Of a DNA stretch of 38,462 nucleotides, positions 12,509 through 37,084 are shown one piece after another. Both the position numbers and the translations under genes were made by a program. The first letter of the stretch is position 1. Each line of letters starts with the position of its first letter. Under the pieces are notes generated by a model. That model did not search any database, was not told the DNA's origin, and saw nothing but the letters and a program-made list of their open reading frames with translations. This DNA is from Halobacterium sp. KA-4 (lineage in GTDB: Archaea > Halobacteriota > Halobacteria > Halobacteriales > Halobacteriaceae), in the NCBI RefSeq assembly GCF_021028995.1, contig NZ_JAJJZG010000025.1, forward strand, positions 1 to 38,462. The letters run 5' to 3'.

Positions 12509-12519
12509 ATGGGCTCGAC

Positions 12520-14195: not shown

Positions 14196-14207
14196 CGAAA
14201 CCCGTCC

Positions 14208-16875: not shown

Positions 16876-16980
16876 CCTACGCGTCCGCCGTCGACCAACT
16901 CGTTTCGGTCACACGAAGACTACGTAAAGACTGCCGGTATCAAAAACTCCCTCTGTGTGACTACTGAATCATCCAGTTGC

Positions 16981-19102: not shown

Positions 19103-19230
19103 GCTCCCACCGATGAACCAAAGGTCGTTAAATCTACCGACAGTCACGACCGTCCTTCCGCTAACTGGTTATTTGTGTGTCACAACCACAAACATTTATA
19201 CTGTCCAACGTACGCGTTTGATTTGGAGAA

Positions 19231-20628: not shown

Positions 20629-20760
20629 CGCGGCGACCACCAGTTTTGACCGAATTCTAGTCACTATTTTTCAGAGAGGGGCAAAGTGAATAGGAAATAC
20701 AGTTCCTAACTCCCAAATCACCTCACCAGCCGACTTAGCAGTGTAGAATCGAGGCCGCGT

Positions 20761-21831
20761 CTATTCGAGATCGACCGTCCGCCCCGTGTCCGCGGACTCG
20801 TGGAGCGCTTTGAGGACGCGCATATCGTAGAGGCCGTGTTCGCCGTCGGCGTACACTGGTTCGCTGGAGAGGACGCGGTCCGCGAAGTAATCGAATTCCT
20901 CGGTCATCTCGTTGATATCGTCCGCAGATGCCGAGAACGACCGGTCGGCAGTCTCGACGGCGAGTTCACACTCCATGTGGAACGCAGGTGACAGCGTGAG
21001 CTGTCCGTCCGTTCCCGTGATTGTCAACTCCGTATCGTTGTACGCGTTCTGCGTCGCGGTGATTGCCGCATGAACGCCGTCGTCGTAGACGACAGTGGCA
21101 GTCGAGCGTTCGTCCGGAACGTCCGCGAACGCGTCGTGCATAGACGTCATTTGCGCCTGCACAGACACTGGGTCTGAACCGAGGATGAATCGCGCGGTGT
21201 TGATGGGGTAGATTCCGAGGTCCATCATCGACGTGCCGTAGCCACTGGCGTCGGGGTCGAGGCGCCACTGGTCGGGGTCCTCGATCATGGAGAGCAGCGG
21301 CTGTGAGTTGTTCCCGTACACCTGTACGGGCTCGCCGATAACGCCGCTGTCGACAAGTTCTCTCGCGCGCCGGACCGCCGGCTCCGTGTGCATTCGGTAC
21401 GCAACCATCAAGGGTATGCTCGCATCATCCGCAACCTCAACCATCTGTTCGGCGCGCTCGACGCTGGCTTCCATCGGTTTCTCACAGAGCACCGCCTTCC
21501 CGAGTTCGGCGGCCGTTTCGACGTACTCGAGGTGATAGGCGTTCGGTGTCGCAACGTAGATGGCGTCGTACTCATCGGCGCACTCTCCGTCGTGGTAGCC
21601 AGCACCCGATATTGCATGAGGGACGTCTGCTTCGTCGGCGAATCGCTGTGCTTTCTCCTGTGAGCGGCTGACGAGTACGGTGACCTCACAGAGGTCCGTG
21701 TCCTGAATCGCCGGGATGGCCTCGTCGATAGTCCACCAACCGAGGCCCACGAGTGCAAGTCGAACCGTCCCGTCGGTTGTCTGTTGCCAGTCCCGGTCCG
21801 TGAACGAGCTAACGGTCTGTCGGAAACCCAT
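20761..21831 (-). CDS. Gfo/Idh/MocA sugar 1-dehydrogenase, Gfo6/xylose dehydrogenase type
   Basis: The 356-residue protein starts MGFRQTVSSFTDRDWQQTTD. Its N-terminal NADP-binding fold has VGLGWWTIDEAIPAI (about residues 28-42), then YVATPNAYHLEYV and the family-defining CEKPMEASVERAE. MVAYRMHTEPAVRRARELV and SMMDLGIYPINTARF follow in the substrate domain. From memory, the GWWTIDEA and DWQ-TDGTVR features are those of the haloarchaeal D-xylose/glucose-fructose-type dehydrogenases (Gfo6). This is the likely first enzyme of the oxidative pentose route, yielding the lactone for the SMP-30 enzyme. It converges on gntP and is separated from the other pathway genes by IS elements and the ara island. 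Confidence 0.88.
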   Translation of the reverse strand: MGFRQTVSSFTDRDWQQTTDGTVRLALVGLGWWTIDEAIPAIQDTDLCEVTVLVSRSQEKAQRFADEADVPHAISGAGYHDGECADEYDAIYVATPNAYHLEYVETAAELGKAVLCEKPMEASVERAEQMVEVADDASIPLMVAYRMHTEPAVRRARELVDSGVIGEPVQVYGNNSQPLLSMIEDPDQWRLDPDASGYGTSMMDLGIYPINTARFILGSDPVSVQAQMTSMHDAFADVPDERSTATVVYDDGVHAAITATQNAYNDTELTITGTDGQLTLSPAFHMECELAVETADRSFSASADDINEMTEEFDYFADRVLSSEPVYADGEHGLYDMRVLKALHESADTGRTVDLE

Positions 21832-21925
21832 ACGACATACTCGTCATGGATTCAGTTAAATGGTCGTGTCTCGACGGTTCTCTTCGTGGGTACTTTCAAA
21901 TAAGGATTGAAAGGTGAAGAGATGC

Positions 21926-22428
21926 GGCACTGTCTAGTTCTGGAGTTCCTCGATCGGTGTTTTTCCATCGAGTGCTTGGTGAGGTCTGTGGCGGTTGTAG
22001 TAATGCATAAACTGTTCAAGCCACTCGCGGACGCTTGACCGACTGCCCACCCACGAATTATCGAAGCGGTCAACCCGCAGTTTGAGCGTGTGAGACCACG
22101 TTTCAATCGGGTTTCGATCGGTATAGTTGACCCGACCGCTCAACCCTAATCGAGCAAGGGCAGTCCGATAGCCGATGCACCCAGTTCCAAATCGCGCCAT
22201 AAGAACGTTGGGCACCTAATTCCGCTAAGATCGTTGTTGTTTCTCTGAGCGAACAACCGGTTTGGTGGAGGCGGACGGCGAACGCCGTGACGGGCGTCGC
22301 CGTCCGCTCATTCTCCCAAGTTTCTTCGAAATACGTTCATAGCGCTCGCTGAGCAGGTCTACGAGCATCTTTGGACAAGAAACTCAACGGCCTGCTCACT
22401 TCTCAAACTCATTCAACTAGAAAGCGAC
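21926..22428 (-). mobile_element. Decayed, internally deleted IS6-family copy
   Basis: The left tip GGCACTGTCTAGTT (21926-21939) is intact, but the right tip is eroded (AACTAGAAAGCGAC at 22415-22428). The transposase is the same type as the two intact copies, but about 240 bp are missing between the WNWVHR and GYRTALARL segments. The junction at about 22174-22184 lies in a short TCGGCT repeat present at both breakpoints in intact copies. A further one-base loss shifts the frame near the N-terminus (MLVDLLSERYER then out of frame). The first catalytic Asp is gone. The flanking 8-mers AGAGATGC and AGGCATGC match at six of eight positions, a worn target duplication. Confidence 0.88.
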
Positions 22429-23791: not shown

Positions 23792-25312
23792 TCACTCAGA
23801 TAACTTGTGAAATGCCTCGCTGTATTTCAGTTCTGTTTCGAAGGACGCCGCGTCGGTCTCCTCGTCAATAAGTAAGAATTCAAGGCCGGCCATCCTCGCA
23901 AAATCGCGGAGGTGGTCCGCACTTACAGACTGGCTGAAGCCAGTATGATGGGCTCCGCCGGCGCGAATCCAAGACTCGATAGCAGTTTCAAAGTCTGGGT
24001 CAGGCTCCCAGATTGCGCACGCAACCGGGAGTTCCCGAAGTTCGGCGTCTGGCTCAACTACTTCGACTGTGTTTGCGACAATTCGGAAGCGATCGCCCAT
24101 ATCTACGAGAGATGCATTAACCGCCGATCCGGGTGCCGTATCGAACACCGCGCGTACCGGGTCATCTTTGCCGCCAATGTCGAGAGGGTGAATCTCGAGG
24201 CAGGGGGTCCCATCAGCGATGGACTCACATACCTCTAGCATATGTGAGCCTAAGACCTTCTCTTCGCCCGGCGTCAGGTGGTAGGTGTAATGTTCCATCA
24301 GAGAAGTCCCCCCCTCCAGTCCGGATCCCATAATTTTCATCGCGCGCGTTAGCAGGGCACTCTTCCAATCTCCCTCCGGGCCGAAACCATAGCCGTCTGC
24401 CATCAACCGCTGGACTGCGAGTCCTGGAAGCTGGGTGAGACCGGTTAGATTCTGGAAATTTGTTGTGAAGGCATTGAAATTACCTTCTTCAAGGAACGCC
24501 CGAAGGCCTAACTCGATGGCTGCTGCTTCGCGTAGCGACTCGTGCTTCTCATTGCCGGCCTGGAGTGGAGTAGCGAGTTCGTAATTGGACTCGTATTTGG
24601 TGACGAGCGCGTCGATGTCCTCCTCGCTAACAGCATCAACGTACTCTACTAAATCGCCTAACCCGTAGCCGCTCACGGTACAGCCAAAGCGCATTTTCGC
24701 AGAGACTTTATCACCCTCAGTAACAGCGACCTCCCGCATGTTGTCCCCGAATCGCGCGATCTTTGCGCCCTGAATGCCGGCCAACGCACACGCGGCCCGG
24801 GCCCACCTACCGAGTTCCGTTTGGACGCTCTCGTTTGTCCAATGACCCACGACCACCTTCCGCTTAAGACCCATACGTGTCGTGGTGTAGCCGAACTCTC
24901 GTCCTCCGTGTGCGGACTGATTCGTGTTCATAAAGTCCATGTCTATCTCTTCCCACGGCAGATCACGATTGTACTGTGTGTGGAAGTGGACGAACGGCTT
25001 GTTGAGTGAATTAAGCCCCCGGATCCACATCTGTCCGGGAGAGAAGGTATGCATCCAAATAACGAGGCCGATGCACTCATCGCTTGCGTTGGCCTTTTGG
25101 CATACATCCCAAATATCGCTCTCGGAGGCCACAACAGATTTGGGGATGATATCGACAGGAATACTCTCACTGTCCGAAAGGAAAGTGGCAATTTCCTCGG
25201 CATGGTTCTCAACCGTCTCTATGACTTTCTCGCCGTACAGGTGCTGGCTTCCGGTTATAAACCAGATCTCAGTATCAGGAAACATACTCATTATTGAGAG
25301 AGCTGAACCCAT
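23792..25312 (-). CDS. araA: L-arabinose isomerase
   Basis: The protein of 506 residues (499 if the ATG at 25291 is used) aligns over its whole length with bacterial AraA, which converts L-arabinose to L-ribulose with Mn2+. FITGSQHLYGEKVIE opens the protein and HTFSPGQMWIRGLN, MDFMNTNQSAHGGREFG and FGDNMREVAVTEGDKV follow. The four metal ligands equivalent to E. coli E306, E333, H350 and H450 are in GPEGDWKSAL, GTSLMEHYTYH, LGSHMLEVCES and AGGAHHTGFS. Numbered from the ATG at 25291, the first ligand falls exactly at 306. A TATA box at 25341-25348 predicts transcription from about 25318. Neither araB nor araD is present; the kinase and aldolase upstream are of other families. Base composition is visibly less GC-rich than in the pentose genes. 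Confidence 0.96.
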   Translation of the reverse strand: MGSALSIMSMFPDTEIWFITGSQHLYGEKVIETVENHAEEIATFLSDSESIPVDIIPKSVVASESDIWDVCQKANASDECIGLVIWMHTFSPGQMWIRGLNSLNKPFVHFHTQYNRDLPWEEIDMDFMNTNQSAHGGREFGYTTTRMGLKRKVVVGHWTNESVQTELGRWARAACALAGIQGAKIARFGDNMREVAVTEGDKVSAKMRFGCTVSGYGLGDLVEYVDAVSEEDIDALVTKYESNYELATPLQAGNEKHESLREAAAIELGLRAFLEEGNFNAFTTNFQNLTGLTQLPGLAVQRLMADGYGFGPEGDWKSALLTRAMKIMGSGLEGGTSLMEHYTYHLTPGEEKVLGSHMLEVCESIADGTPCLEIHPLDIGGKDDPVRAVFDTAPGSAVNASLVDMGDRFRIVANTVEVVEPDAELRELPVACAIWEPDPDFETAIESWIRAGGAHHTGFSQSVSADHLRDFARMAGLEFLLIDEETDAASFETELKYSEAFHKLSE

Positions 25313-25340
25313 GCGTAAAAAGATACCGCTAGGTCAGAAA

Positions 25341-25348
25341 TATTTAAA
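25341..25348 (-). promoter_or_regulatory. TATA box of araA
   Basis: TATTTAAA (TTTAAATA on the minus strand) lies about 26 bases before the expected transcription start near 25318, so araA has its own promoter and a leader of about 6 bases to the first ATG. No copy of the 17-bp palindrome is near it. Confidence 0.55.
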
Positions 25349-25524
25349 GAAGATTTGAAAGGAGGTGCGTAACGTTTTCTGAATGGTATGCCCCGTAATG
25401 TTATCCGGAATGGAAGTGCCGACTAGACCAACTTAGATTTTATTGAGCGAGAATCGATACCGTAGCTGCTGGCGATGCTCTGCATTGAGTTGTATCCGAT
25501 GTATGCTCAGATAAGTACAGTCGT

Positions 25525-25650
25525 TTTTATGGGCTGTAATGATTGTGGTAATGTTTGTATTATTCAAACCACTCGTGGATGGATGGCCGACTCCCGCCCA
25601 TGAGTTGTGGAAGCAGCTGACCTCATTCTATGGGTATGAAACTTCTTTTA
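25525..25650 (-). pseudogene. Degenerate IS6-family transposase C-terminal remnant
   Basis: The sequence follows the 3' part of the IS6 transposase genes of this window at a distance: the stretches around 25531-25575 and 25590-25640 match the regions encoding the YYNRHRP, WLEQF and DRF-NSWVGSRSS segments, with many substitutions. No open frame remains. It is part of an 860-base tract between araA and the aldolase gene that consists largely of IS debris. Confidence 0.6.
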
Positions 25651-25737
25651 CTCTATCCACCTATATTTGATCCTATTGATGACAACTCGGGACAGATCCA
25701 CTCTCTGCGAGTTATTCTGTGAATCAGTAAACGTCTC

Positions 25738-25836
25738 TTACCACTGACGGACTGCTTGATGGCCACGATTAACCTCCAGCCAGTCTAAGACAGCCTCGAC
25801 TTCACCAAATGACACCTCATCGAATGAAGTCAAACT
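25738..25836 (-). pseudogene. Fragment resembling the N-terminal region of another transposase
   Basis: On the minus strand the frame reads SLTSFDEVSFGEVEAVLDWL, EVNRGHQAVRQW and then stops. The WLEVNRGHQAVRQW pattern recalls the helix-turn-helix of a haloarchaeal transposase family distinct from the IS6 copies here. Both ends are lost. Identification is tentative. The rest of the tract 25313-26176 holds no gene; at 26094-26113 it contains a short match to the 5' end of the broken transposase at 33086-33720. Confidence 0.35.
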
Positions 25837-26176
25837 GCGAAACAACGTATTAGTATGCGTTCATTCTCGAAAACGCCTCGATTCTCCACGTCTAAGCGTT
25901 CTCTGAAGTGGTCTACGAATTTTACGAACCTTTTCATTATAACTCCTCAAACTCTCTATACTACACAGAGCCCCTGTAATGGCCTCCTCGCCACCTAACA
26001 ACGGATGCCGACTTCATTCGCTCACTCCAGATAACTGTCCCGTTCCACAAATGACTACCTTATCTACGTAATATGCCCTATGATGGTCCAATTTTGGCAT
26101 AGATCACTCGAACAGCGATGTTCTATCTTCTAATCTAATCAACCGTCCATAACTATCTTTCCACGTTCCCCCCGGG

Positions 26177-26965
26177 CTACGGCCATACGTCATCCACGTT
26201 CGCTCCATCGTGGACAACTTCACTGAGGGCACTAATGACCGCCCGAGGATCCTCCTTCTGCCAGATTGAGCGCCCAATCATGATCCCGCTGCCGCCCGCC
26301 TCTATTGAATCAGATACCATTCTGAGCAAGTCACGGGTATCACCGGACTTACCGCCGAGCACAGTCACTGGGACCGGGGAGTTAGACGTGATTCGCTTGA
26401 AGGTTTCTCGATCGTTTGGATAGGGAATCTTAATGATATCCGCTCCATATTCCCATCCCAGTCGGGCAGCGTTTTCGAGCCACTCGGGATCCGTTCGGTT
26501 TTCTTCGGGCGTGTCTCGCCCCCATAAAACCGTCTCGACGATCAACGAGATATCGGTATTCCGAAGCCGTTCAAAGGCCTCGGCGACTGCCCGGATGTTC
26601 CGACAGTACATACCCCGATCGTTCCGGCCGAATACGAGAATAATCTTTACCGCGGCGGGCTCGAACTCGGTGATGAAATCTAGGTCAAACGCCGGCTCCC
26701 ACACATCCTCGTGTTCATCGATTCCCGGGTTCGTTGAGAAAGCGACCACGTCGCCAGTGATTGCAATCGACACGTTCGACTCGTCGAACTCTTCGTCATA
26801 CTGGCGGACAAGGTGAGGACTGACGAGGACGCCGTCGGGATTCCCTCCGAGGACGGTCCGTAGCGTTTCACGAGGGTCCTTAAACCCGTCTATCGCACCA
26901 AACGTCAGCCCGTGGTCCATCGCGACGGTAACCGAGTTACTTGACCGCGAGGCAAATAAAGACAT
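26177..26965 (-). CDS. Class I aldolase, DhnA/DeoC-LacD family
   Basis: The 262-residue protein is a TIM-barrel aldolase of the DhnA type, the family of archaeal class I fructose-bisphosphate aldolase and LsrF. VAMDHGLTFGAIDGF (about residues 13-27) is the N-terminal substrate loop and GADIIKIPYPNDRETFKR carries the expected Schiff-base Lys. VTVLGGKSGDTRDLLRM and GSGIMIGRSIWQKEDP form the phosphate-binding end of the barrel. It lies 37 bases after the kinase gene in the same direction, so the two probably work in series. Cleavage of a ketose 1-phosphate, for instance L-ribulose 1-phosphate to DHAP and glycolaldehyde, would fit the neighbours; fructose 1,6-bisphosphate or another ketose phosphate is the alternative. 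Confidence 0.85.
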   Translation of the reverse strand: MSLFASRSSNSVTVAMDHGLTFGAIDGFKDPRETLRTVLGGNPDGVLVSPHLVRQYDEEFDESNVSIAITGDVVAFSTNPGIDEHEDVWEPAFDLDFITEFEPAAVKIILVFGRNDRGMYCRNIRAVAEAFERLRNTDISLIVETVLWGRDTPEENRTDPEWLENAARLGWEYGADIIKIPYPNDRETFKRITSNSPVPVTVLGGKSGDTRDLLRMVSDSIEAGGSGIMIGRSIWQKEDPRAVISALSEVVHDGANVDDVWP

Positions 26966-27002
26966 GTGATCAGATGGTAGTCAGGAGAGCAGGGCCTTAA
27001 TA

Positions 27003-28145
27003 TTATTGGACGGATTCATCAAAGTGCCCCGCGTACCCGTCTACGAACTTCTTTATTTCTGTGTACGTTGGTGCGGTCCCAGTACGAACGAAGCACCCTG
27101 CGACGGCGTTACCCAAGACAACTCGGGCAGGAACGGGAAGGTTCTGAATAAGCCCCAACACGAAACCTGCGTTGAAGTGATCGCCCGCGCTAGTTGTCAT
27201 CGCCGGGGACTCCGTCATCGGGACTGCGACGGTGCTCGTCTCCTCGTCTGTTACCGCGACTGACTTATCGATCCCGTGGCCCACAACCTGATTGATCTCA
27301 AGCACGGAGAATGCTTCCTGTGTGGCACGTTCGAGATCAGTTGTTGACGTTCCGGCTAGTACGTACGCCAGCTCCTCAATTTCGGAGCGGTTCCCGCTTA
27401 GTATCACAGGTACCTGCTCATTAACAGTCGAAATCAGCTCTGCCCCCTCGCTTGCCTCTGCCTCAGAGAGTCCGCGGATATCGCCCGTGTCAATAAATAT
27501 CGCCTTAGGTGGGTCTTCCATCCGGTTCCACCGCTGCTCCACAAGATTGTGAAGCACGCGAGGTAGATCGGGGATCAGCGCCCAATACCCGGTACTGAGT
27601 ACATCCGCGCCATCGATATATCCGGTGAGCCGCTCCGTGGACACCACCTTAGACATCTGCTCCCAGCTCAGATTCACCGAGTCGCCAGGCTCAACGAGGA
27701 GAAGCTTCTCCGTATCGAACTCGACAGCATCACAGAAACTCGGTTCCCCCACCGAGATGAGCGTGTGTTCCCCGATGTCTTTGACGAACTCCTTACGGGG
27801 CGGGTGCCCGAACGTTCCGACGGCAATGACAGTCAGTCCAAGCTTTCCGAATGCCCGCGAAAGGTGGGGTACGTGGCCACCAATTCGCTTTCCTGTGGTT
27901 ATCCACTCCTCGGTCATCGATGATCTGGAGGCAAGGGTGTTATCGATGTTCTCTCGAAACTCGCGCAGTGATCGCATCGTAGTGTACGTGTCCGAATTTC
28001 TGCGCTCCGAAATTATTTCACGGTTGGTGTCGATGACACCATCAAAGCCGAAAACCACAGATGCATCCCTCGGCTCCGCAGGTAACGCCTGTCGACACGC
28101 ACAGATCGCGTTGAGAGTCTCCTGTGTCAGCTGTCGTTCTTTCAT
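27003..28145 (-). CDS. PfkB/ribokinase-superfamily sugar kinase
   Basis: The 380-residue protein has the ribokinase fold. ASVVFGFDGVIDTNRE is near the N-terminus (about residues 28-43) and the first family signature region is RIGGHVPHLSRAFGKLGLT. The second signature, SAGDHFNAGFVLGLI (about residue 333), holds the catalytic Asp and the anion hole. It is longer than typical PfkB kinases because of an N-terminal extension and an insert around residues 60-95, a feature shared with some ADP-dependent sugar kinases, so the phosphoryl donor is uncertain. Its place between ABC transporter and aldolase genes makes phosphorylation of the isomerised pentulose at O1 the best guess. It is not a FGGY-type AraB. 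Confidence 0.82.
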   Translation of the reverse strand: MKERQLTQETLNAICACRQALPAEPRDASVVFGFDGVIDTNREIISERRNSDTYTTMRSLREFRENIDNTLASRSSMTEEWITTGKRIGGHVPHLSRAFGKLGLTVIAVGTFGHPPRKEFVKDIGEHTLISVGEPSFCDAVEFDTEKLLLVEPGDSVNLSWEQMSKVVSTERLTGYIDGADVLSTGYWALIPDLPRVLHNLVEQRWNRMEDPPKAIFIDTGDIRGLSEAEASEGAELISTVNEQVPVILSGNRSEIEELAYVLAGTSTTDLERATQEAFSVLEINQVVGHGIDKSVAVTDEETSTVAVPMTESPAMTTSAGDHFNAGFVLGLIQNLPVPARVVLGNAVAGCFVRTGTAPTYTEIKKFVDGYAGHFDESVQ

Positions 28146-28277
28146 GGGTTCTATCGGCCGTGTGCTATCCCGGCGACATCTGTGCGTCGTCGCTCAATCG
28201 TCTGTTCATACGCACTCAGTGTGATTACTGTATTGGCTCGTCCCTGTTCATATTCCGATTATTTGGGCCGATGGTAG

Positions 28278-29384
28278 CTAATTGAGGCGGACCGCGGAGT
28301 CGTCGTAGCCGTCAAAGAAGTGCAGGTACGTCTCTTCTGTCGTCAAGTATCCATCCTGTCCCTCGGTGAGGATTCCTGTAGGAACGACCGCGACGATCTC
28401 CTCGTGATCAGGTGTGATACACCGGATAATGTCCTCGGTTCCCATCTGCTCTATTACTTGAACTGTCACTGGAATTGTGACGTTAAACTCTGCTGGTTCT
28501 TCGTCGTACCAGTCAAGATGCTGAGGTCGTATTCCGACCGCCACATCGTTCGACGAACGATCGGCGAGCACACTGACGGAGTTGGAAAGCGTGAACGTCC
28601 CGAAGTCAGATGTGAGCGTGACGATCTCGTCAGTTTCGTCAGTGATGACGCATTGGAGTATGTTGATCTGTGGTGAGCCGATGAAGTTCGCGACGAACAG
28701 AGAGGAAGGATTGTTGAATATTTCCGAGGGGGTACCGACCTGCCCGATATCCCCTCCATTTAGGACGACAATCTTGTCAGCCATCATCATTGCTTCCTCC
28801 TGATCATGGGTGACGTGGATCGTCGTGATGTCTAAGTCATTTTGGAGGCGCTCAATAGAAGACCGAATCTCTCGTTTCATCAACTCATCGAGATCCGAGA
28901 GCGGCTCATCGAGTAGGAAAACTTCGGGCTCACGAACGAGCGCACGAGCGATGGCGACACGCTGTTGTTGCCCCCCAGAGAGGTCATTAACTGGCTTCTC
29001 CAAGAACTCGTCGCAGTTCGCCAGGTTGGCAACTTCCTCGATCCGCTCCGCGTACTCTGATTCAGGTATGGAGCTGTCCGCATTCAACGCGAATTTGATG
29101 TTACCCATCGCGGTGAGGTGGGGGTACAACGCAAGGTCCTGAAACACCATGCTGATCTCGCGATTTTGCGGGGGGGAATCGACTACTGACTTACTACCGA
29201 AGCGGATGTCACCACTGGTTGGTGTTTCGAGACCTGCAATCATCCGGAGTAAGGTCGTCTTCCCACATCCACTCGGACCGACGAACACGACAAGTTCGCC
29301 GTCCTCCAATTCTAGCGAGACGCTGTTTACCGCAACGATGCTTCCGAACTCTTTCCTAAGGTTGTCAACGTGAACGGATGCCAT
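28278..29384 (-). CDS. Sugar ABC transporter ATPase, CUT1 MalK/UgpC type
   Basis: The 368-residue protein has all ABC motifs: Walker A GPSGCGKTTLLR (about residues 36-47), Q-loop MVFQDLALYPHL, signature LSGGQQQRVAIARAL, Walker B VFLLDEPLSDLD and the switch His in HVTHDQEEAMMMADK. A C-terminal OB-type domain of about 130 residues (after GSPQINILQC) is usual for the MalK group and may bind a regulatory partner. It starts 7 bases after the stop of the permease gene, so it is part of the same operon, and is followed by the kinase gene after 132 bases. Confidence 0.94.
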   Translation of the reverse strand: MASVHVDNLRKEFGSIVAVNSVSLELEDGELVVFVGPSGCGKTTLLRMIAGLETPTSGDIRFGSKSVVDSPPQNREISMVFQDLALYPHLTAMGNIKFALNADSSIPESEYAERIEEVANLANCDEFLEKPVNDLSGGQQQRVAIARALVREPEVFLLDEPLSDLDELMKREIRSSIERLQNDLDITTIHVTHDQEEAMMMADKIVVLNGGDIGQVGTPSEIFNNPSSLFVANFIGSPQINILQCVITDETDEIVTLTSDFGTFTLSNSVSVLADRSSNDVAVGIRPQHLDWYDEEPAEFNVTIPVTVQVIEQMGTEDIIRCITPDHEEIVAVVPTGILTEGQDGYLTTEETYLHFFDGYDDSAVRLN

Positions 29385-29391
29385 TATTGTA

Positions 29392-30228
29392 TTATATGTC
29401 GCTGAAGCCCAGTGATAGGCCTTGGATGATGTTCTTTCTGAATGTGACCAGAATTAGTACTGGTGGGAGCGCTGCGACGAAGGCGAACGCCATCATTCTG
29501 TTCCATACGATTGAGTTCCCTCGCCCTAGAGTCGTGACGATGGTTGTGTAAGGCGTGATGTCTGTTCCGCTGATCATCAACGCAAACAGGAACTCGTTCC
29601 ACGCGAATACCCACGCAAGCAGTGTGGTGGCGACAAGTCCCTGTTTGACGAGTGGCAGTGCGACTGAAAAGAATGTTCTGATTCTAGAGCTTCCCTCGAT
29701 GTACGCTGCCTCCTCATAGCTCAGCGGTATTTTATCGAAGAAGTCTCGCATAAGCCACGTGGTTAGTGGCAGGTTGAACGTGAGATATAAGAGTATGAGG
29801 CCGAGGTATGTGTCGCTTAGCCCGACCCGGTTCCAGATAAAGAAGATCGGGAGAACGATTGCGATAGGGGGAAACATTCGGGTTGAGAGCAGCCAGAACG
29901 CAACATGCTTTCCGGCAAGCTTCTTCCCAAAGCGGGAGAAGCCGTATCCTGCCATCGTCCCGAAGATCATCGCTAGCACCGTCGATCCGACTGCAACAAC
30001 GAGGCTGTCGATAAGCGCCCCGCGTGCACGGTCGCTCAAGAAAACCCACAAGAACGCATCTAGGCGCAGTTGCTTGGGATAAAGCGTCGGTATCTCCGTT
30101 CCGATCAAGGCCATCGGTTTTAGCGCCGTGTTTAGGGTCCAGTAGATCGGGAATGCGCTGAACAGTGCAAACGCTGCCAACACGGCCCAGCTCAAATACG
30201 TGAATGTTCGGGAAGAGACTCTGGCCAT
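29392..30228 (-). CDS. Sugar ABC transporter permease, MalG type
   Basis: The 278-residue membrane protein has six predicted helices and the EAA loop EEAAYIEGSSRIRTFFSVALP, the contact site for the ATPase. The chosen start is the ATG complementary to 30226-30228, which overlaps the stop of the preceding permease by one base (TGATG). The frame is open for 26 codons further upstream, but those lie inside the other permease gene. The N-terminus MARVSSRTFTYLSWAVLAAF then leads directly into the first membrane helix, as is usual for MalG-type subunits of CUT1 importers. Confidence 0.92.
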   Translation of the reverse strand: MARVSSRTFTYLSWAVLAAFALFSAFPIYWTLNTALKPMALIGTEIPTLYPKQLRLDAFLWVFLSDRARGALIDSLVVAVGSTVLAMIFGTMAGYGFSRFGKKLAGKHVAFWLLSTRMFPPIAIVLPIFFIWNRVGLSDTYLGLILLYLTFNLPLTTWLMRDFFDKIPLSYEEAAYIEGSSRIRTFFSVALPLVKQGLVATTLLAWVFAWNEFLFALMISGTDITPYTTIVTTLGRGNSIVWNRMMAFAFVAALPPVLILVTFRKNIIQGLSLGFSDI

Positions 30229-31163
30229 CAGATACTCACCTCCGAACTCTGAATGTAACGCCAGAAAGCCATCATAATCAGAGTCGCCCCAAGACCCAAT
30301 ATCCATGTCATCGCCGCCGCACGGCCGATGTTGAACACGTTGAATCCTACCACGTAGGCGTAGTATGTGGGGAGCTCGGTTGCTGAGCCTGGGCCACCGG
30401 AGGTCATAATGAACAGCTTGTCGAAAAGCTTGTACAGGTCCATGAAGCGCAGCAGCCCCGCAACGACTAGGAGGCTCCTAAGTTGGGGGTAAGTGATGTA
30501 TCGGAACTTCATCCAGCGCGATGCGTCCTCAATCTGCGCGGCATTGTACATGCTCTCCGATAGCCCAACACGGCCGCCATAGACAATGATTAACGGTAAC
30601 CCTACCCACTGCCACGTATCCGCGATCAGGAGCGAAGTAAGCCCGAGCCATCGTGATCCGAGCCATTGGACCGCGGGCAGGCCAAGAATCTGTAGGATTC
30701 CATTAACGGCTCCTGAGGATGAGAACAGAAGGGTCCAGATGTTTCCGGCAATGATGGGTGCAAACATCATCGGAGTGGTGAACAGAACAAGTGCGGAGAT
30801 TTTCACTAATTGGCTTTTGACGGCGTTGTGGAGTGCAAGTGCGAGTATCGTCCCGAGTGCCACCTGGAAAATGACCCCGCCGACTCCGTAATAAAGGAAG
30901 TTCACGACGGAGTCCCAGAAGCGCGGGTTAGTCAGTACCCACACATAGTTATCGATTCCTGTCCAGCGCGGCACTGGGTTGATACTACTTGGGTTCCATA
31001 GATGGAAACTCAACCACATCGACCACAGCATCGGCACGATGGTGACAAAGAAGACAGTGAGCACCGTGGGAAGAATCATCAGGAGACCGAACCCACGGTC
31101 CGAAAGTGACCGCGGTGACCATGATGACAACCTTTCACCAAATGCGTCTGTCTCTAAGTTCAT
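30228..31163 (-). CDS. Sugar ABC transporter permease, MalF type
   Basis: From the ATG complementary to 31161-31163 the protein is 311 residues, starting MNLETDAFGERLSSWSPRSL; an ATG 16 codons earlier is possible but that extension looks non-coding. Six helices are predicted, beginning with GFGLLMILPTVLTVFFVTIV. The EAA-like loop is YNAAQIEDASRWMKFRYITYP. TSGGPGSATELPTYYAYVVG is typical of MalF-type subunits of CUT1 importers. A 233-base gap separates it from the binding-protein gene; it may hold a terminator or processing site allowing higher expression of the binding protein. Confidence 0.9.
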   Translation of the reverse strand: MNLETDAFGERLSSWSPRSLSDRGFGLLMILPTVLTVFFVTIVPMLWSMWLSFHLWNPSSINPVPRWTGIDNYVWVLTNPRFWDSVVNFLYYGVGGVIFQVALGTILALALHNAVKSQLVKISALVLFTTPMMFAPIIAGNIWTLLFSSSGAVNGILQILGLPAVQWLGSRWLGLTSLLIADTWQWVGLPLIIVYGGRVGLSESMYNAAQIEDASRWMKFRYITYPQLRSLLVVAGLLRFMDLYKLFDKLFIMTSGGPGSATELPTYYAYVVGFNVFNIGRAAAMTWILGLGATLIMMAFWRYIQSSEVSI

Positions 31164-31396
31164 ACTTGTGAGCCGTTGATTTGTATAGTATTGGTCATAG
31201 CACTGTAACACACATTTTTGATGTCCTAAATAAGTGTTTTGATTTACTGATCCTCTTATTCACCCCCTATTTAGTTTCGTTACACCATGATGAGTGCATA
31301 TTGGCAACCATTGCGAAATTCCGTCAGCGGCCAACGAATCTGGAGATACTCGACTGGCGACCGGAATTAGGGATGCTGGGGATTTTTAGCTTGAGT

Positions 31397-33025
31397 TCAC
31401 AGGTATCCAAGTTTCTCCGCCGAGTTAAGGAAGTCTTGGTAATACTTTGTCTGCTGATCTCGTCCGAGACGGTCCAAGGTCTTCTCCCACTCGTCCGCAG
31501 TATCGTTGAGAGCCTTTGTCGGAGATTTCTGCCCCGCAAGGGCCCTCTGCACGTTTAGCGCGAGGGGCTCGATGTACGAGCGGGCACCGGGCCAGTACGG
31601 CTGTGGGAATCCAATCGACATATTCGCCTGCGCTGCTTCAAGGTGCTGTTTTGCGTTTTCAAGATTATCCCAGACTGCGGGATTACTGTCGAATCCAGGA
31701 CCAGAGTCAGGGCGCAGCGGGTTTGGCTTGGTGAATTGCTTGGCTGCTTTCTCGGTATAATGTTGATCCATATATGGGTCGTTTCCGAGGTAAGGATCCG
31801 CGATGCCATAGATACTGAGATCCTGATGGCTCTCGCGCATGGCCGCATAGAAGGCTGCCTCCTTGATATCTTGGTTCTTATCCTTCGGGATTCCCCATAG
31901 GCGGCCAGAAGCCATGCAAGCACGGTGGCGGATATCTCCACTTTCAGTCTCGTATCCCGGCAATTTCGCGGATGCCTGATCACCAACAACGGGATAATCG
32001 CCGCGAGCGGTGAATTCGGGTAGGTCAAGCCACCACTGACACATAACGACGTTGCCCTGCTGCCATTGGTTGATCGTCTCCGGGATACCGAATTGTTCGG
32101 TCCCGGCAGGAGAGTAGTCAACGCACTCAACCATGTCTTGGAGTGCCTCAATGGCGGAATCTGAGTTGATATCAGGATTCATGTCCTCATCAAAGTAGAG
32201 GACCCCATTGGACGCTGCTCGAGACATGAAGTATCCAAAAGTGAATGGACGATTTCCGTACAACATCGTCCCGTGGACACCCTCTGCGTTTTCCTCGAAG
32301 TATTGTGCGACTTGATTGAATTCTTTCCAAGTCTTGGGTACCCGGAGCTCCTGTCCCGTCTGTTCCCGGTAGCGTCGTTGATGCTCCTCGTCCTCGAAAT
32401 ACGAGGGACGATAGTGGAGTTCAAGAAGATCGCCGTCAATCGGGATACCTAGCGTCTTTCCATCCCACTTCGTATAGAACTCGCGGAATGGGTCAAGGAT
32501 ACCATCATCCCACGATTTGGTCCGATCGTACTTAGCGATGTAGTCGTCGAGCGGCTCAAGTACATCCCGTACTCCATAGGATCCAATATAGATTGGTGAT
32601 ACTTGGACAAGATCCCATGGAACCTTTCCCTGTTGGGTGAATGCAGACTGAATTCTCTCGTTCGTGTTCCCCTGCTCGTACAACACGCCGTCAGTGAATG
32701 AGAGGCCAGCTTCCTCGTTCAACTTCTCCTCCCAAATTCGAAAGTGGGGGCCGCTTGATGCATCACAAATCCACGACAAGTCACGGGTGTCTGCGAAGCG
32801 GTCCGAGTTCAACGGATTCGCGAGAGATGAGGTGTTATCTTCTCCCGAATTGGAGGTGCTGTCGTCGCCGGAGGGCCCCCCACCACTTCCACCGGAACAG
32901 CCCGCGGTGAACACGCCGGCACCGGCTGCAAGCCCACCACCAAGGTACTTCATCGCCTGCCGACGGTTCATTCCGAATGGGTATTCCTGCTCCTTATCTT
33001 CATCTGGCCTAGTCGGATCTGACAT
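31397..33025 (-). CDS. Sugar ABC transporter substrate-binding lipoprotein (Tat type)
   Basis: The 542-residue protein starts at the ATG complementary to 33023-33025 (another ATG lies two codons earlier). It has a twin-arginine signal, GMNRRQAMKYLGGGLAAGAG, followed by the lipobox TAGC and a Gly/Ser linker, so it is exported folded and anchored by lipid. The rest is a family 1-type extracellular solute-binding protein (MSMVFQ-like motifs absent, but WICDASSGPHFRIWEEKLN, VPWDLVQVSPIYIGSYG and GNVVMCQWWLDLPEF are in the usual places). It is the first gene of the sugar import operon. A TATA box at 33047-33056 gives a nearly leaderless transcript. The ligand is inferred from the neighbours to be L-arabinose or an arabinose-containing sugar. 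Confidence 0.9.
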   Translation of the reverse strand: MSDPTRPDEDKEQEYPFGMNRRQAMKYLGGGLAAGAGVFTAGCSGGSGGGPSGDDSTSNSGEDNTSSLANPLNSDRFADTRDLSWICDASSGPHFRIWEEKLNEEAGLSFTDGVLYEQGNTNERIQSAFTQQGKVPWDLVQVSPIYIGSYGVRDVLEPLDDYIAKYDRTKSWDDGILDPFREFYTKWDGKTLGIPIDGDLLELHYRPSYFEDEEHQRRYREQTGQELRVPKTWKEFNQVAQYFEENAEGVHGTMLYGNRPFTFGYFMSRAASNGVLYFDEDMNPDINSDSAIEALQDMVECVDYSPAGTEQFGIPETINQWQQGNVVMCQWWLDLPEFTARGDYPVVGDQASAKLPGYETESGDIRHRACMASGRLWGIPKDKNQDIKEAAFYAAMRESHQDLSIYGIADPYLGNDPYMDQHYTEKAAKQFTKPNPLRPDSGPGFDSNPAVWDNLENAKQHLEAAQANMSIGFPQPYWPGARSYIEPLALNVQRALAGQKSPTKALNDTADEWEKTLDRLGRDQQTKYYQDFLNSAEKLGYL

Positions 33026-33046
33026 AACCAAATCACCATTTCCCCC

Positions 33047-33056
33047 TATTTATAAT
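33047..33056 (-). promoter_or_regulatory. TATA box of the sugar ABC transporter operon
   Basis: TATTTATAAT (ATTATAAATA on the minus strand) is centred about 26 bases before the start codon at 33025, predicting an almost leaderless transcript. The region upstream is the broken transposase ending at 33086, so the operon's own control region has been cut down to about 60 bases. Confidence 0.6.
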
Positions 33057-33085
33057 AAATGTTTGGGACGATACGGTGGTATTGT

Positions 33086-33720
33086 TCAGATTAGCCGATT
33101 CCATGCGAAGGCAAAGGTTTGCAACCATGTTTCCGCAGAGTCAGCAGTTGCGTGGTGGAAGTGGTTGGCGAACTGTTCAGTGCGACGTTTCAGTTCCTTA
33201 AACACGCGTTCGACGGCATTTCGGTTCCCATGAGTGACGTGTTGGAATCGGAGCCCAAGCTCGAAGAGTGCAGCTTTGTGCCACGGTGCACCATCAACCA
33301 GAAACACGGCATTTTTGACGCGATGTTTCTCGCGGAGTTCCGCCAGAAATTGTTTTGTCAAGACGATTGTTCGGGTTTGAAAGAGCCTGACGTGCAGGAA
33401 TTCGTTGGTTTCGGGATCGACTGCGGCGTACAGCCAGTAGCCCAGACCGTTGAGTTGAATCACGGTTTCGTCGATCGCAACGTGATTCGGGTTCTTGTCG
33501 GAATTGGGCTGTAGACCGGCTTCCTGTACCCAATTGTGAACAGTTGAACGAGCGCGTTCGACACCGAACTCAGCGAGGCCACTAATGGTATCCGAGAGTG
33601 ATAAGCCGGCAGTATGGGGTCCGATACGCAAGTTTATCGCGACCTCCGATGTCGCTTCTCGCTTCACAAACGCTCACTCGAAGCAGTCGCTACCTCCGTT
33701 GAGCGGGCGATTTCTGGCAT
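33086..33720 (-). pseudogene. IS6-type transposase (second type) with frameshifted N-terminus
   Basis: The main frame encodes a transposase unlike the 746-bp copies. The DDE residues are in HVAIDETVIQLN, VFLVDGAPWHKAALFE and NRNAVERVFKELKRRTEQF, and the C-terminus AFAWNRLI is characteristic of this group. The natural start, ATG complementary to 33718-33720, reads MPEIARSTEVATASSE. It then goes out of frame before FVKREATSEVAIN, where intact relatives as I remember them have FVEREATP. One or two bases have been lost, and no inverted-repeat tips were found. The element is therefore probably dead. Confidence 0.75.
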
Positions 33721-33821: not shown

Positions 33822-34567
33822 GGCACTGTCTAGTTGAGTTAGTTTGAGAAGTGAGCAGGTCGTTGAGTAACTTGTTCAGAGATGCTCGCAGACCTGCTCA
33901 GCGAGAGCTATGAACCGGATTTAGAAGAAACTTGGGAGAACGAGCGGACGGCGACACCCGTTAGGGCGTTCGCCGTCCGCCTTCACCAGACCGGTTGTTC
34001 GCTTCGAGAAACAACAACGATCTTAGCGGAATTAGGCGTTGAACGCTCTCATGGGGCGGTTTGGAACTGGGTGCATCGGCTGTCTGACAGCGGACGCGAC
34101 CCGCCTGAGGCGCAGCCGAAGCGGGTCGCCGTTGACGAGACTGCTGTCAAGATTAACGGTGAGTGGTCTTGGCTGTATGCTGCAATAGACATCGACACAA
34201 AGTTAATCCTCGATGTCGCGTTATTCGGACGACATGGCACCGATCCGGCGGCGGCGTTCCTCGCTGGCCTCCGCGAGAAACATGATCTCTCAGAGGCTGA
34301 GTTTCTCGTCGATCAGTTCGGCTATCGGACTGCCTTTGCTCGATTAGGGTTGAGCGGTCGGGTCAACTATACCGATCGAAACCTGATCGAAAAGTGGTTT
34401 CACACGCTCAAAATGCGGGTCGACCGCTTCCATAACTCGTGGGTGGGCAGTCGATCGAGCGTTCGAGAGTGGCTTGAACAGTTTATGCATTACTACAACC
34501 GCCACAGACCGCACCAAGCTCTCGATGGAAAAACACCGATCGAGGTGGTCCAGAACTAGACAGTGCC
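33822..34567 (+). mobile_element. IS6-family insertion sequence, copy 2 (746 bp, intact)
   Basis: The same 14-bp tips as copy 1 (GGCACTGTCTAGTT at 33822-33835 and its complement at 34554-34567) enclose an almost identical element in opposite orientation. The flanking 8-bp duplication is GATACCGG (33814-33821 and 34568-34575). The target before insertion contained the palindrome ATACCGGTAT. The element lies 30 bases past the end of the IclR gene, where it may have removed or displaced a terminator. Confidence 0.96.
33882..34559 (+). CDS. IS6-family DDE transposase
   Basis: This 225-residue transposase is the twin of the one at 12528-13205, differing at two residues (Phe in RTAFARLGL and Gln in REWLEQF). 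All catalytic residues and the helix-turn-helix are intact. The near identity indicates recent transposition of one lineage within this replicon. Confidence 0.95.
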   Translation: MLADLLSESYEPDLEETWENERTATPVRAFAVRLHQTGCSLRETTTILAELGVERSHGAVWNWVHRLSDSGRDPPEAQPKRVAVDETAVKINGEWSWLYAAIDIDTKLILDVALFGRHGTDPAAAFLAGLREKHDLSEAEFLVDQFGYRTAFARLGLSGRVNYTDRNLIEKWFHTLKMRVDRFHNSWVGSRSSVREWLEQFMHYYNRHRPHQALDGKTPIEVVQN

Positions 34568-34597
34568 GATACCGGTATACGATTTCCGAGCAACGAC

Positions 34598-35359
34598 CTA
34601 TCGGTATTTCAAATTAACCTCAATGACGTTCGCAGTGCGTAACACGAGATCGGGGATCTCCTCGTGGAACCGTTCCTCTTGCATGCCACTCTTCGGGCCG
34701 GAGACGCTGACCGCGCCGAGCACCTGGCCGTCTTCGCCGGTAATCGCTACGCCTACGCAACGCACGCCCGGAATCCGTTCCTCGTCGTCGATGGCATATC
34801 CGCATTCGCGGCACTCCTCAATTTCCTCGAAGAGTCGGTCGCGGTCGGTGACAGTGTGCTCGGTGACTTCCGGGAGGCCATGCTCGTCGAGTATCGCGTG
34901 AATCTCCTCGTCAGGGTACTCCGCCAGAATCGCCTTCCCCGCGGATGTCGTCGAGAGGTGGACATGCTTGCCGACGTGCGTGTCCAGCTGGAACGCGTCC
35001 TCGCCTTCGGCTTTCGCATAGAATACCGCCTTACCGCACTGCTCTACAACCAGATTCGCGTGCTCGCCCGTCTGATGGGCGATTTTCTGTATCTCCGGCT
35101 CGGCCACGTCGTAGATGGGGTCCTGTTTGCGGGCGAAGCCACCGACTTCGAGGAACCGAGCACCCACTTGATAGCCGTCGTCGTCGCTGGTCACGAACCC
35201 TTCATTCTCCAGCGTACGGAGGTGGTCGAACACCGTGCTCGTCGGGAGGTCGAGGTGGTCAGCGAGCTCGGAAACGCCGGTGCACCCCAGTTCCTGGAGC
35301 GCCTCGATGATGGTCACTGTGGTCTGCACAGAACCAATCGGCGCGTCGTGTGTTGCCAT
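34598..35359 (-). CDS. IclR-family transcriptional regulator, likely XacR-like
   Basis: The 253-residue protein has an N-terminal winged helix (about residues 8-68: VQTTVTIIEALQELGCTGVS, DLPTSTVFDHLRTLENEGFV) and the IclR effector domain (residues 75-250). LSTTSAGKAILAEYPDEE and GVRCVGVAITGEDGQVLGAV are typical segments. It is divergent from the sugar-acid dehydratase gene with 130 bases between starts. A 17-bp palindrome lies at 35392-35408, just upstream of its own TATA-like CTATATG (35381-35389, minus strand). The haloarchaeal pentose regulator XacR belongs to this family. It probably binds the palindrome here and at the other five sites, controlling itself and the pentose genes; the effector would be a pathway intermediate. 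Confidence 0.9.
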   Translation of the reverse strand: MATHDAPIGSVQTTVTIIEALQELGCTGVSELADHLDLPTSTVFDHLRTLENEGFVTSDDDGYQVGARFLEVGGFARKQDPIYDVAEPEIQKIAHQTGEHANLVVEQCGKAVFYAKAEGEDAFQLDTHVGKHVHLSTTSAGKAILAEYPDEEIHAILDEHGLPEVTEHTVTDRDRLFEEIEECRECGYAIDDEERIPGVRCVGVAITGEDGQVLGAVSVSGPKSGMQEERFHEEIPDLVLRTANVIEVNLKYR

Positions 35360-35391
35360 ACCTCCTCTGTTCGTACGAGCCCATATAGATT

Positions 35392-35408
35392 TTCCGCCGA
35401 TAGCGGAA
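35392..35408. promoter_or_regulatory. 17-bp palindromic operator, site 4 (IclR/dehydratase divergent promoter)
   Basis: TTCCGCCGATAGCGGAA has arms TTCCGC and GCGGAA. It sits immediately upstream of the iclR-type gene's TATA region and about 45 bases upstream of the dehydratase gene's TATA box (35452-35460). That position suits repression of the regulator and activation of the dehydratase. Confidence 0.7.
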
Positions 35409-35451
35409 CGAAGCCGTCGAAGGCAGCGGCCTCGGTGGCGCTGCTACATGA

Positions 35452-35460
35452 ATATATTTA
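35452..35460 (+). promoter_or_regulatory. TATA box of the sugar-acid dehydratase gene
   Basis: ATATATTTA lies about 26-30 bases before the expected transcription start near 35483, giving a leader of roughly seven bases to the ATG at 35490. Confidence 0.6.
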
Positions 35461-35489
35461 ATACACTCCTCTCAGACCAATAGTTTGCA

Positions 35490-36665
35490 ATGTCGGACGT
35501 TAGCATCACCGGCGTCGAGACCTATCTCGTCGCGAACCCGTGGAAACCGTGGGTGTTCGTCGAACTCGAGACGGACGCTGGCGTGACCGGGATCGCGGAG
35601 GCGACGACGCACGACAAGCCACGTACTGTTGCGAAAGCCATCGACGAGATGTCGAACTTCTTCATCGGACGGGACCCCTTCGACACCGAGTCGCTCTGGT
35701 TGGAGATGTACCGTGACGAGTGGTTCTCCAAGAACGTCATCAACACCACCGTTGTCTCGGCCATCGATATGGCGTGTTGGGACATCAAGGGGAAAGTCCT
35801 CGACGAGCCCGTCTACGACCTCCTCGGTGGCCCGGTCCACGGCACCGAACTTCGCGCGTACGCGAACGGCTGGTACACAGACACCGATGGTGAGCCCGAG
35901 GGGTTCGCCGAAGCCGCCGAACGCGTCGTCGACGACGGCTACGACGCGATGAAGTTCGACCCGTTCGGAACCGCGTGGCAGTCCATGAGCCGCAAGGACC
36001 AAAACCACGCCGTCGACATCGTACGCGCGGTCCGCGAAGCGGTCGGTCCCGACGTCGACCTGCTCATCGAGTGCCACGGCCGCTTCTCCGCCGGACAGGC
36101 GGTCGAAATCGCGCGTGAGCTCGACGAATTCAACCCGACTTGGTTCGAAGAGCCGTGCCCGCCGGACTCGATCAACAGTCTCGCGGAGGTATCGCGCAAG
36201 TCCCCAATTCCGGTGGCGACCGGCGAACGCCACATGACCAAACACGACTTCTACGAACTGGTCACGCGGACTGACGTCGACGTCCTCCAGCCGGACTTGA
36301 TGAACACCGGTGGCATCACCGAAGGGAAGAAGATCGCCGGCCTCGCGGAGGCCGACCACGTCGACATCGCACCCCACAACCCACAGGGTCCGGTGGCTGG
36401 CGCGATCTACGGACACTTCTGCACGTCTATTCCGAACTTCCGTATTCAGGAGATGTTCCAGACGTACGACGTCGACTGGGTCGACAACCTCCTGAAGGAG
36501 CCCCTCGAAGTCGAGGACGGCTACATGCAGATTCCCGAGGGCCCGGGCTACGGGATCGAACTCGACCACGACGTCATCGAGGAGCACGCCTACACTGAGG
36601 ACAAGGTCCACACAATCGATCTCTGGGAGAAGGATTGGGAGAAGCGCGCCGTCGAGAAGCGCTAA
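35490..36665 (+). CDS. Enolase-superfamily sugar-acid dehydratase (pentonate/galactonate type)
   Basis: The 391-residue protein is a mandelate racemase/muconate lactonising enzyme relative of the galactonate-dehydratase group. After an N-terminal capping domain (ETDAGVTGIAEATTHDKPRT) the barrel shows KFDPFG, the metal ligands in LLIECHGRFS, FEEPCPPDS and VATGERHM, and the catalytic His in DIAPHNPQGP. It dehydrates an aldonate to the 2-keto-3-deoxy acid. In Haloferax volcanii the xylonate/arabinonate dehydratase of the oxidative pentose pathway belongs to this superfamily. With the KdaD-like gene next to it, a pentonate substrate is most likely. It is divergent from the IclR regulator and shares its operator. 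Confidence 0.9.
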   Translation: MSDVSITGVETYLVANPWKPWVFVELETDAGVTGIAEATTHDKPRTVAKAIDEMSNFFIGRDPFDTESLWLEMYRDEWFSKNVINTTVVSAIDMACWDIKGKVLDEPVYDLLGGPVHGTELRAYANGWYTDTDGEPEGFAEAAERVVDDGYDAMKFDPFGTAWQSMSRKDQNHAVDIVRAVREAVGPDVDLLIECHGRFSAGQAVEIARELDEFNPTWFEEPCPPDSINSLAEVSRKSPIPVATGERHMTKHDFYELVTRTDVDVLQPDLMNTGGITEGKKIAGLAEADHVDIAPHNPQGPVAGAIYGHFCTSIPNFRIQEMFQTYDVDWVDNLLKEPLEVEDGYMQIPEGPGYGIELDHDVIEEHAYTEDKVHTIDLWEKDWEKRAVEKR

Positions 36666-36909
36666 CTCCATCCCGTTCCGTTCCAACGCGTCTGTCCCCA
36701 CCTGGGTTGATTCCCGTGATCGACCCACCTCCGACCCTGTTCAACTCTCAGAGACAGCTACGTCTACGTTTTCTCGTTCCGCGTGTACACGGACTCCTGT
36801 TACCTGCTGGTGCGAGAATTCGGCAGGCGACGATGGTTATTCACCGACACACATCGCGTCCCACTCAGTCGAAATGATATCCCGTGCAGGCGCCACCTTA
36901 CACTGGTGT

Positions 36910-36926
36910 TTCCGGCAGTACCGGAA
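36910..36926. promoter_or_regulatory. 17-bp palindromic operator, site 5
   Basis: TTCCGGCAGTACCGGAA is a near-perfect copy of the motif, 85 bases before site 6. It lies in the 419-base gene-free stretch (36666-37084) between the dehydratase and the KdaD-like gene. Apart from the two operators and a TATA box I see no other feature in this stretch. Confidence 0.65.
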
Positions 36927-37011
36927 GGATTGTACGGCGGTTTTCGGCAGTGGGTCCGACGTTTCGGCTATACTTTACACAACTACACGTGTAATTCTAC
37001 TCTTGGCATTC

Positions 37012-37028
37012 TTCCGGCATAGCCGGAA
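37012..37028. promoter_or_regulatory. 17-bp palindromic operator, site 6 (KdaD-like gene promoter)
   Basis: TTCCGGCATAGCCGGAA has seven-base perfect arms around a three-base centre. It ends 24 bases before the TATA box of the KdaD-like gene, a usual place for an archaeal activator site. Sites 5 and 6 are about 102 bases apart centre to centre. Confidence 0.7.
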
Positions 37029-37052
37029 AAATCCAAAAATCCGACACACAAA

Positions 37053-37062
37053 GATATATATC
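37053..37062 (+). promoter_or_regulatory. TATA box of the KdaD-like gene
   Basis: GATATATATC is centred about 27 bases before the ATG at 37085, predicting a leaderless transcript. Confidence 0.65.
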
Positions 37063-37084
37063 GGTCGATGATGCACGTGAGGAC

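Follow-up and report, generated by a model that had tools for sequence, protein, structure and literature searches.

In haloarchaea, L-arabinose is known to be used oxidatively or, in Halorhabdus, by an araBAD-like route (PMC8551123). A gene for a bacterial-type L-arabinose isomerase (araA) in Halobacterium sp. KA-4 raises the question of what becomes of the L-ribulose that its product would release. The gene was analyzed within the whole of contig NZ_JAJJZG010000025.1 (assembly GCF_021028995.1), a stretch of 38,462 nucleotides referred to below as the window. The favored answer, to which a probability of roughly 0.55 was given, is that araA belongs to an acquired cassette, flanked by insertion sequences (IS), that would convert L-arabinose to L-ribulose, then to L-ribulose 1-phosphate, and finally to dihydroxyacetone phosphate (DHAP) plus glycolaldehyde.

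Genes were called by translation and by profile searches (Pfam, NCBIfam) of the window proteins. A CUT1 ATP-binding cassette (ABC) importer, a kinase, an aldolase and araA were all found intact on the minus strand (Table 1), as described in a first-pass annotation made from the letters alone, including the four metal ligands of AraA and the Schiff-base lysine of the aldolase. The importer set is complete, with a MalK-type ATPase, two permeases and an SBP_bac_1 protein. AraA scored 771 bits against the NCBIfam equivalog NF002795 (cut-off 622), and its metal-ligand motifs (PEGDW, MEHYTYH, SHMLE and AHHTG, with two Glu and two His as ligands) were kept in an alignment with the solved AraA 7cx7; by its membership of the AraA family, the enzyme is predicted to isomerise L-arabinose to L-ribulose. 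AraA was very rare in Halobacteria, being present in 5 of the 391 genomes of a class sample, and in 1 of 170, 0 of 125 and 4 of 146 genomes in three family searches that overlap with that sample. The haloarchaeal carriers searched amount to six species, namely the present genome, Halorubrum sp. CBA1125 and four of one Halorhabdus-type genus, whose AraA proteins are 65-66% identical to that of the window; all haloarchaeal AraA formed one clade (support 0.998).

The whole genome, which is 99.79% complete, was searched for AraB, AraD and transketolase. No AraB was detected in it, the sole FGGY protein being the glycerol kinase GlpK (738 bits), nor any AraD, the sole class II aldolase being a D-ribulose-1-phosphate aldolase (357.7 bits, cut-off 300) whose gene adjoins that of a ribulose bisphosphate (RuBP) 5-phosphatase. 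The lack of araB and araD first read from the cassette thus extends to the entire genome, and the look for such a pair elsewhere, suggested in the first-pass annotation, came out in favor of its proposal. Transketolase gave no match in this genome and was present in all four araA-bearing genomes of the Halorhabdus-type genus. Since none of the three proteins was found, the bacterial araBAD route is closed in Halobacterium sp. KA-4; with no transketolase, neither L-ribulose 5-phosphate nor xylulose 5-phosphate would lead any further.

The kinase, previously placed in the PfkB superfamily, indeed matched PfkB (38.5 bits) and, more specifically, the Pfam family Khk ("prokaryotic ketohexokinase"; 394.8 bits, cut-off 35), with residues N252, E255, G321 and D322 of the PfkB catalytic motifs invariant. 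Its AlphaFold model (predicted local distance difference test, pLDDT, 94) has a PfkB fold (best Z 28) and matched the ketose-1-kinase YihV (Z 26.3); a sequence-only search of the PDB returned just weak partial PfkB matches. The haloarchaeal ketohexokinases characterised so far phosphorylate fructose at C1, yielding fructose 1-phosphate (PMC11519228), and from this family relationship we infer that the window kinase would also phosphorylate a ketose at C1. In trees of 41-42 members it joined two kinases encoded close to the same type of aldolase (support 0.92-0.95), apart from the kinases adjoining 1-phosphofructokinase. Two positions separated these groups: Glu190 and Ser320 occurred in 15 of 15 fructose-type kinases (among which the H. 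volcanii-type kinases were counted by inference from their Hvo_1808-family neighbours), while the aldolase-linked kinases have Val or Asn and Ala, respectively, and the window kinase Leu and Ala. With L190, A320 and a place outside the fruK-linked clade, it does not group as a fructose-type ketohexokinase.

The aldolase, which matched the Pfam DeoC/LacD superfamily, was aligned with haloarchaeal class I fructose-1,6-bisphosphate (FBP) aldolases, MJ0400, the T. tenax FBP aldolase and 33 subfamily members. Its Lys179 aligned with the Schiff-base Lys177 of the T. tenax enzyme and was kept in all 33 members, as were D72, K107, R114 and P181. All 33 also shared Glu144 in place of Trp144, Val or Thr in place of Tyr146, and Trp148 in place of Arg148, the window aldolase itself having E144, V146 and W148. 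Glutamate is used on the strand of position 144 by LacD and by animal class I aldolases; PDB chain 1w8s, which we take to be an engineered double mutant, also showed Glu at 144, with Phe at 146. Two identities were tried and rejected: FBP aldolase (86.7 bits against an NCBIfam cut-off of 430, with the Trp144/Tyr146/Arg148 pattern replaced) and ADH synthase (AroA'; 132 bits against the TIGR01949 cut-off of 299, with Val at the Tyr153 position). The AlphaFold model (pLDDT 86) had ADH synthase as its best PDB match (Z 30.3), with LsrF and FBP aldolase next; LacD (Z 21) and YihT (Z 22), which is a ketose-1-phosphate aldolase, were matched as well. Judged by sequence, the enzyme represents a distinct DhnA subfamily and not an ordinary FBP aldolase.

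No relative of this aldolase was found with a protein query of the contig collection, but searches of whole genomes recovered relatives at 42-53% identity, and this type of aldolase occurred in about 45 of the 391 haloarchaeal genomes (E < 1e-50). Sixty neighbourhoods were examined, mostly chosen around aldolase and kinase matches, so that the following counts express exclusion rather than frequency. Ten Khk-family kinases were encoded at most 2.5 kb from the aldolase type, none of them with a 1-phosphofructokinase within 6 kb, and eleven were near a 1-phosphofructokinase, none of them near the aldolase type; a kinase-aldolase pairing that excludes 1-phosphofructokinase fits direct cleavage of a ketose 1-phosphate. 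In two distant relatives (L099 and L108) the aldolase was accompanied by a GAT-type phosphotransferase system (PTS; IIB and IIC), a TIM-like protein and nearby genes for enzyme I and HPr, and by no Khk kinase, the pattern to be expected where a PTS delivers the 1-phosphate. The common theme would thus be a ketose 1-phosphate, made by a kinase or a PTS and cleaved without a second phosphorylation. Partners of the kinase/aldolase module included polyol-type dehydrogenases, short-chain dehydrogenases/reductases (SDRs), a galactonate-dehydratase-like protein and CUT1 or ribose-type importers. The ketose supplier upstream of the module varies and in the window would be AraA.

Other surroundings of the aldolase type were also recorded. 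In five clusters (L079, L081, L085, L086 and L092) it occurred with an SDR, a DeoR regulator, a cyclase, a PdxA-family dehydrogenase and a D-threonate-kinase-like protein; these genes probably form a haloarchaeal pathway for a four-carbon sugar acid. In another (L078), a ribose-type permease and dihydroxyacetone kinase genes in split form (Dak1, Dak2) are found close to the aldolase and a Khk kinase. Small open reading frames (ORFs) beside some aldolases, considered as LacA/LacB, proved on inspection to resemble a nucleotidyltransferase/HEPN pair.

The neighbourhood of araA, kinase and DhnA aldolase without araB/araD that the first-pass annotation proposed to search for was found a second time, on the 47.9-kb contig NZ_WPCE01000003.1 (L240, L129) of Halorubrum sp. 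CBA1125, whose genome is 84% complete. There the kinase and aldolase genes lie 13-15 kb from araA, after binding-protein and permease genes, and in the trees neither was sister to its window counterpart. Since the two pairs are non-orthologous, the sets of the two genomes appear to have been put together independently. No AraB/AraD homologue was found within 10 kb of the CBA1125 araA, whereas 40 of 46 full-length AraA flanks have one, and the CBA1125 genome gave no transketolase match. The flanks of 78 other AraA loci, nearly all bacterial, gave no Khk or aldolase match, so that the combination of araA, Khk kinase and aldolase was seen only in haloarchaea. The chance of finding the aldolase near araA in both cases is about 1e-6, a rough value that takes an aldolase frequency of 11%, counts about 1% of a genome as lying close by, and ignores the clustering of sugar genes. 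The CBA1125 island also encodes SDRs and a Zn alcohol dehydrogenase, with DUF1537-type kinase-like and dehydrogenase-like ORFs further upstream. We consider it an even bet that AraA, a Khk L-ribulose 1-kinase and a DhnA L-ribulose-1-phosphate aldolase form a natural route that arose in haloarchaea on two or more occasions, each time by the joining of araA to a modular kinase/aldolase pair, and that the aldolase is a new functional class in which Glu144 replaces Tyr146.

In the proposed route, the CUT1 importer would take up the sugar and AraA would provide L-ribulose, which the ketohexokinase-family kinase, with ATP, would convert to L-ribulose 1-phosphate; the DhnA-subfamily class I aldolase would then cleave this intermediate to DHAP, destined for central metabolism, and glycolaldehyde. 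The latter would join an existing pool, one that the genome is expected to cope with, given that it also has the gene for the D-ribulose-1-phosphate aldolase of the non-carboxylating pentose bisphosphate pathway. L-ribulose is 3S,4S, the same configuration as D-tagatose, and a FucA-type enzyme should prefer 3R,4R; a separate aldolase would thus be needed, since the resident FucA-type enzyme should not be suited to L-ribulose. The three steps had already been proposed in the first-pass annotation and are strengthened by the Khk family, the aldolase residues, the absence of AraB, AraD and transketolase, and the CBA1125 island, with the kinase and aldolase steps still predictions. Parts of that annotation had to be given up: the aldehyde dehydrogenase suggested there as a possible glycolaldehyde sink proved to be the 2,5-dioxovalerate dehydrogenase (876.7 bits, cut-off 750) of an oxidative gene set that had been overlooked, ADP as phosphate donor found no support, and "phosphorolytic" is the wrong word for a chemistry of phosphorylation and aldol cleavage.

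The spacing among the importer, kinase and aldolase genes ranges from overlap to about 230 bp, and a TATA-like box precedes the binding-protein gene. A further TATA-like box (TTTAAATA) lies about 30 bp upstream of the araA start, inside the gap that separates araA from the aldolase gene. Because this gap is long and AT-rich and araA has a promoter-like box of its own, two transcription units would probably be formed, araA being the second. The gap held no recognisable transposase remnant; all matches shown were copies of this very stretch. Two inverted, 99.6% identical IS6 copies enclose about 22 kb with both sugar gene sets, in an arrangement resembling a composite transposon, and the cassette genes have a GC content of 53-56%, compared with 60-63% in five neighbouring genes; IS-mediated horizontal acquisition of the cassette is likely on these grounds. 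The other set is an oxidative pentose (xac-like) one, split in two by the araA cassette, with a D-xylose-type pentose dehydrogenase Gfo6 (591.9 bits, cut-off 350), an SDR, an SMP-30 lactonase, two FAH-type proteins, a GntP permease, an IclR regulator and an enolase-type dehydratase.

Table 1. Positions of the cassette genes, mobile elements and other features of the window, and of the second araA island.
Feature	Coordinates	Strand	Evidence or remark
araA, bacterial-type L-arabinose isomerase, 506 aa	23792..25312	-	NF002795, three AraA Pfam domains
Aldolase-araA gap, AT-rich (44% GC), 864 bp	25313..26176	.	no recognisable gene
DhnA/DeoC-LacD-type class I aldolase, distinct subfamily; predicted L-ribulose-1-phosphate (ketose-1-phosphate) aldolase	26177..26965	-	Pfam DeoC, residues, AlphaFold model
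Ketohexokinase-family (PfkB superfamily) kinase; predicted L-ribulose 1-kinase	27003..28145	-	Pfam Khk, tree
CUT1 importer (whole set)	28278-33025	-	
CUT1 ABC importer ATPase	28278..29384	-	UgpC/MalK-type matches
ABC permease (ORF open to 30306; likely start Met27)	29392..30228	-	BPD_transp_1; closest NCBIfam GlcU
ABC permease (ORF open to 31211)	30228..31163	-	closest NCBIfam GlcT
Sugar-binding lipoprotein, twin-arginine lipobox signal (NRRQAMKYL...TAGCSGG)	31397..33025	-	Pfam SBP_bac_1
IS6-family element flanking cassette (one of the inverted pair)	33822..34568	+	NF033587, 195.7 bits
IS6-family copy (other of the inverted pair)	12519-13265		
IS6-family degenerate copy, other cassette flank	21925..22424	-	88-93% identity to intact copies
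IS6-family copy	33086-33667		
IS1595-family transposase adjoining araA	22593..23477	+	NF033547, 140.5 bits, cut-off 75
Oxidative pentose gene set, first part	13305-21831		
Oxidative pentose gene set, second part	34598-37954		
2,5-dioxovalerate dehydrogenase	16957-18423		
Hydantoinase/oxoprolinase A and B pair	1577-5217		nearest caprolactamase subunits, far under their cut-offs
TnpB RNA-guided nuclease, IS200/IS605-type element	7057-8334		
Aldehyde ferredoxin oxidoreductase family protein	9437-11104		
CBA1125: araA, with importer ATPase gene	17632-19134		
CBA1125: Khk-family kinase	32034-33161		
CBA1125: aldolase	~33.35-34.15 kb		

Several observations weigh against L-ribulose 1-phosphate as the intermediate. 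L-ribulose has not been reported as a substrate for any kinase of the Khk family, and the H. marismortui enzyme was called fructose-specific, the sugars tested including aldopentoses and no ketopentose (PMC11519228). The module occurs in many haloarchaea without araA, and its native substrate may be another ketose. In the CBA1125 genome a xylulokinase is encoded and the kinase keeps Glu190, and in the window araA lies 864 bp from the aldolase gene, probably with separate transcription, and the oxidative pentose genes are present.

The main rival substrate is D-galactose, which AraA enzymes also isomerise; the product, D-tagatose, would be phosphorylated to D-tagatose 1-phosphate and cleaved to DHAP plus D-glyceraldehyde. 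The pair stays in competition because D-tagatose shares the 3S,4S configuration of L-ribulose, and several of the relatives' kinase/aldolase clusters contain polyol-type dehydrogenases and a dehydratase that exceeds the galactonate-dehydratase threshold (583 bits, cut-off 311). However, a tagatose route has no step for galactonate dehydratase, AraA scores as an L-arabinose equivalog, and no galactosidase or galactose gene was recognised within the window; D-galactose use was rated unlikely. Just as doubtful is a kinase/aldolase pair serving another imported ketose, fructose or polyol-derived, beside an araA placed there by IS elements, whose product would go unused or drain into the oxidative pathway. 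The promoter-like box of araA, the 864-bp gap, the IS elements around the cassette and the polyol dehydrogenases found in place of AraA in most module relatives would agree with this, whereas the fructose-type residues are missing from both kinase and aldolase, no 1-phosphofructokinase was found nearby, and CBA1125 has araA within 15 kb of a non-orthologous pair.

A slightly lower probability was given to xac-type oxidation of L-arabinose to 2-oxoglutarate, the araA cassette then being an acquisition that is redundant or in decay. Haloarchaea are known to use the sugar oxidatively as a rule (PMC8551123), and the window provides the Gfo6 dehydrogenase, 2,5-dioxovalerate dehydrogenase, lactonase, FAH-type, dehydratase and IclR genes; yet the dehydrogenase is of the D-xylose type, all cassette genes are intact with their catalytic residues kept, and both routes could coexist. 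Completion of the classical araBAD route by genes elsewhere, as known in Halorhabdus (PMC8551123), is hardly credible, as AraB, AraD and transketolase would all have to sit in the missing ~0.2% of the genome.

The preferred L-ribulose 1-phosphate route, if true, would explain the use of a bacterial isomerase by an organism without transketolase, and would give a function to the haloarchaeal aldolase subfamily adjoining ketohexokinase-like kinases in many genomes. It would also provide, in nature, an equivalent of pathways known until now from engineering (PMC5727944); no natural L-ribulose-1-phosphate route was found in the literature searched, and the phrase "L-ribulose 1-phosphate" was absent from the open literature searched. 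The engineered Escherichia coli pentulose-1-phosphate routes likewise take L-arabinose through AraA and a ketose 1-phosphate to DHAP and glycolaldehyde, but they are synthetic and, ahead of RhaB and the aldolase, require an extra epimerase (DTE), whereas no epimerase gene was seen in the window cassette (PMC5727944). The Halorhabdus L-arabinose pathway shares an orthologous AraA but continues with an FGGY ribulokinase, AraD and transketolase (PMC8551123), none of which is encoded by Halobacterium sp. KA-4. The khk-fruK-fbaB1 route of Haloarcula hispanica uses a kinase of the same Pfam Khk family and is also CUT1-fed, but its 1-phosphate is rephosphorylated by 1-phosphofructokinase and then cleaved by an FBP aldolase (PMC11519228), while in the window no such second kinase is near and the aldolase belongs to another subfamily. 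The non-carboxylating pentose bisphosphate pathway of haloarchaea, the phosphatase and aldolase of which are encoded in the same genome, likewise has as its last step the splitting of a pentulose 1-phosphate into DHAP and glycolaldehyde; it starts, however, from nucleosides and cleaves D-ribulose 1-phosphate with a class II (Zn) aldolase of the FucA type, which is not related to the DhnA-type enzyme of the window (PMC9700705). The closest logic is that of the sulfoglycolytic Embden-Meyerhof pathway of E. coli, in which an aldose isomerase (YihS), a PfkB-fold C1 kinase (YihV) and a class I aldolase of the same superfamily (YihT) lead to DHAP and an aldehyde. The window differs in its AraA isomerase family, its distant kinase and aldolase relatives, its CUT1 importer and a pentose without sulfonate as substrate, and by this analogy the proposed route may be regarded as a variant of the isomerase, C1-kinase and aldolase scheme known from sulfoglycolysis.

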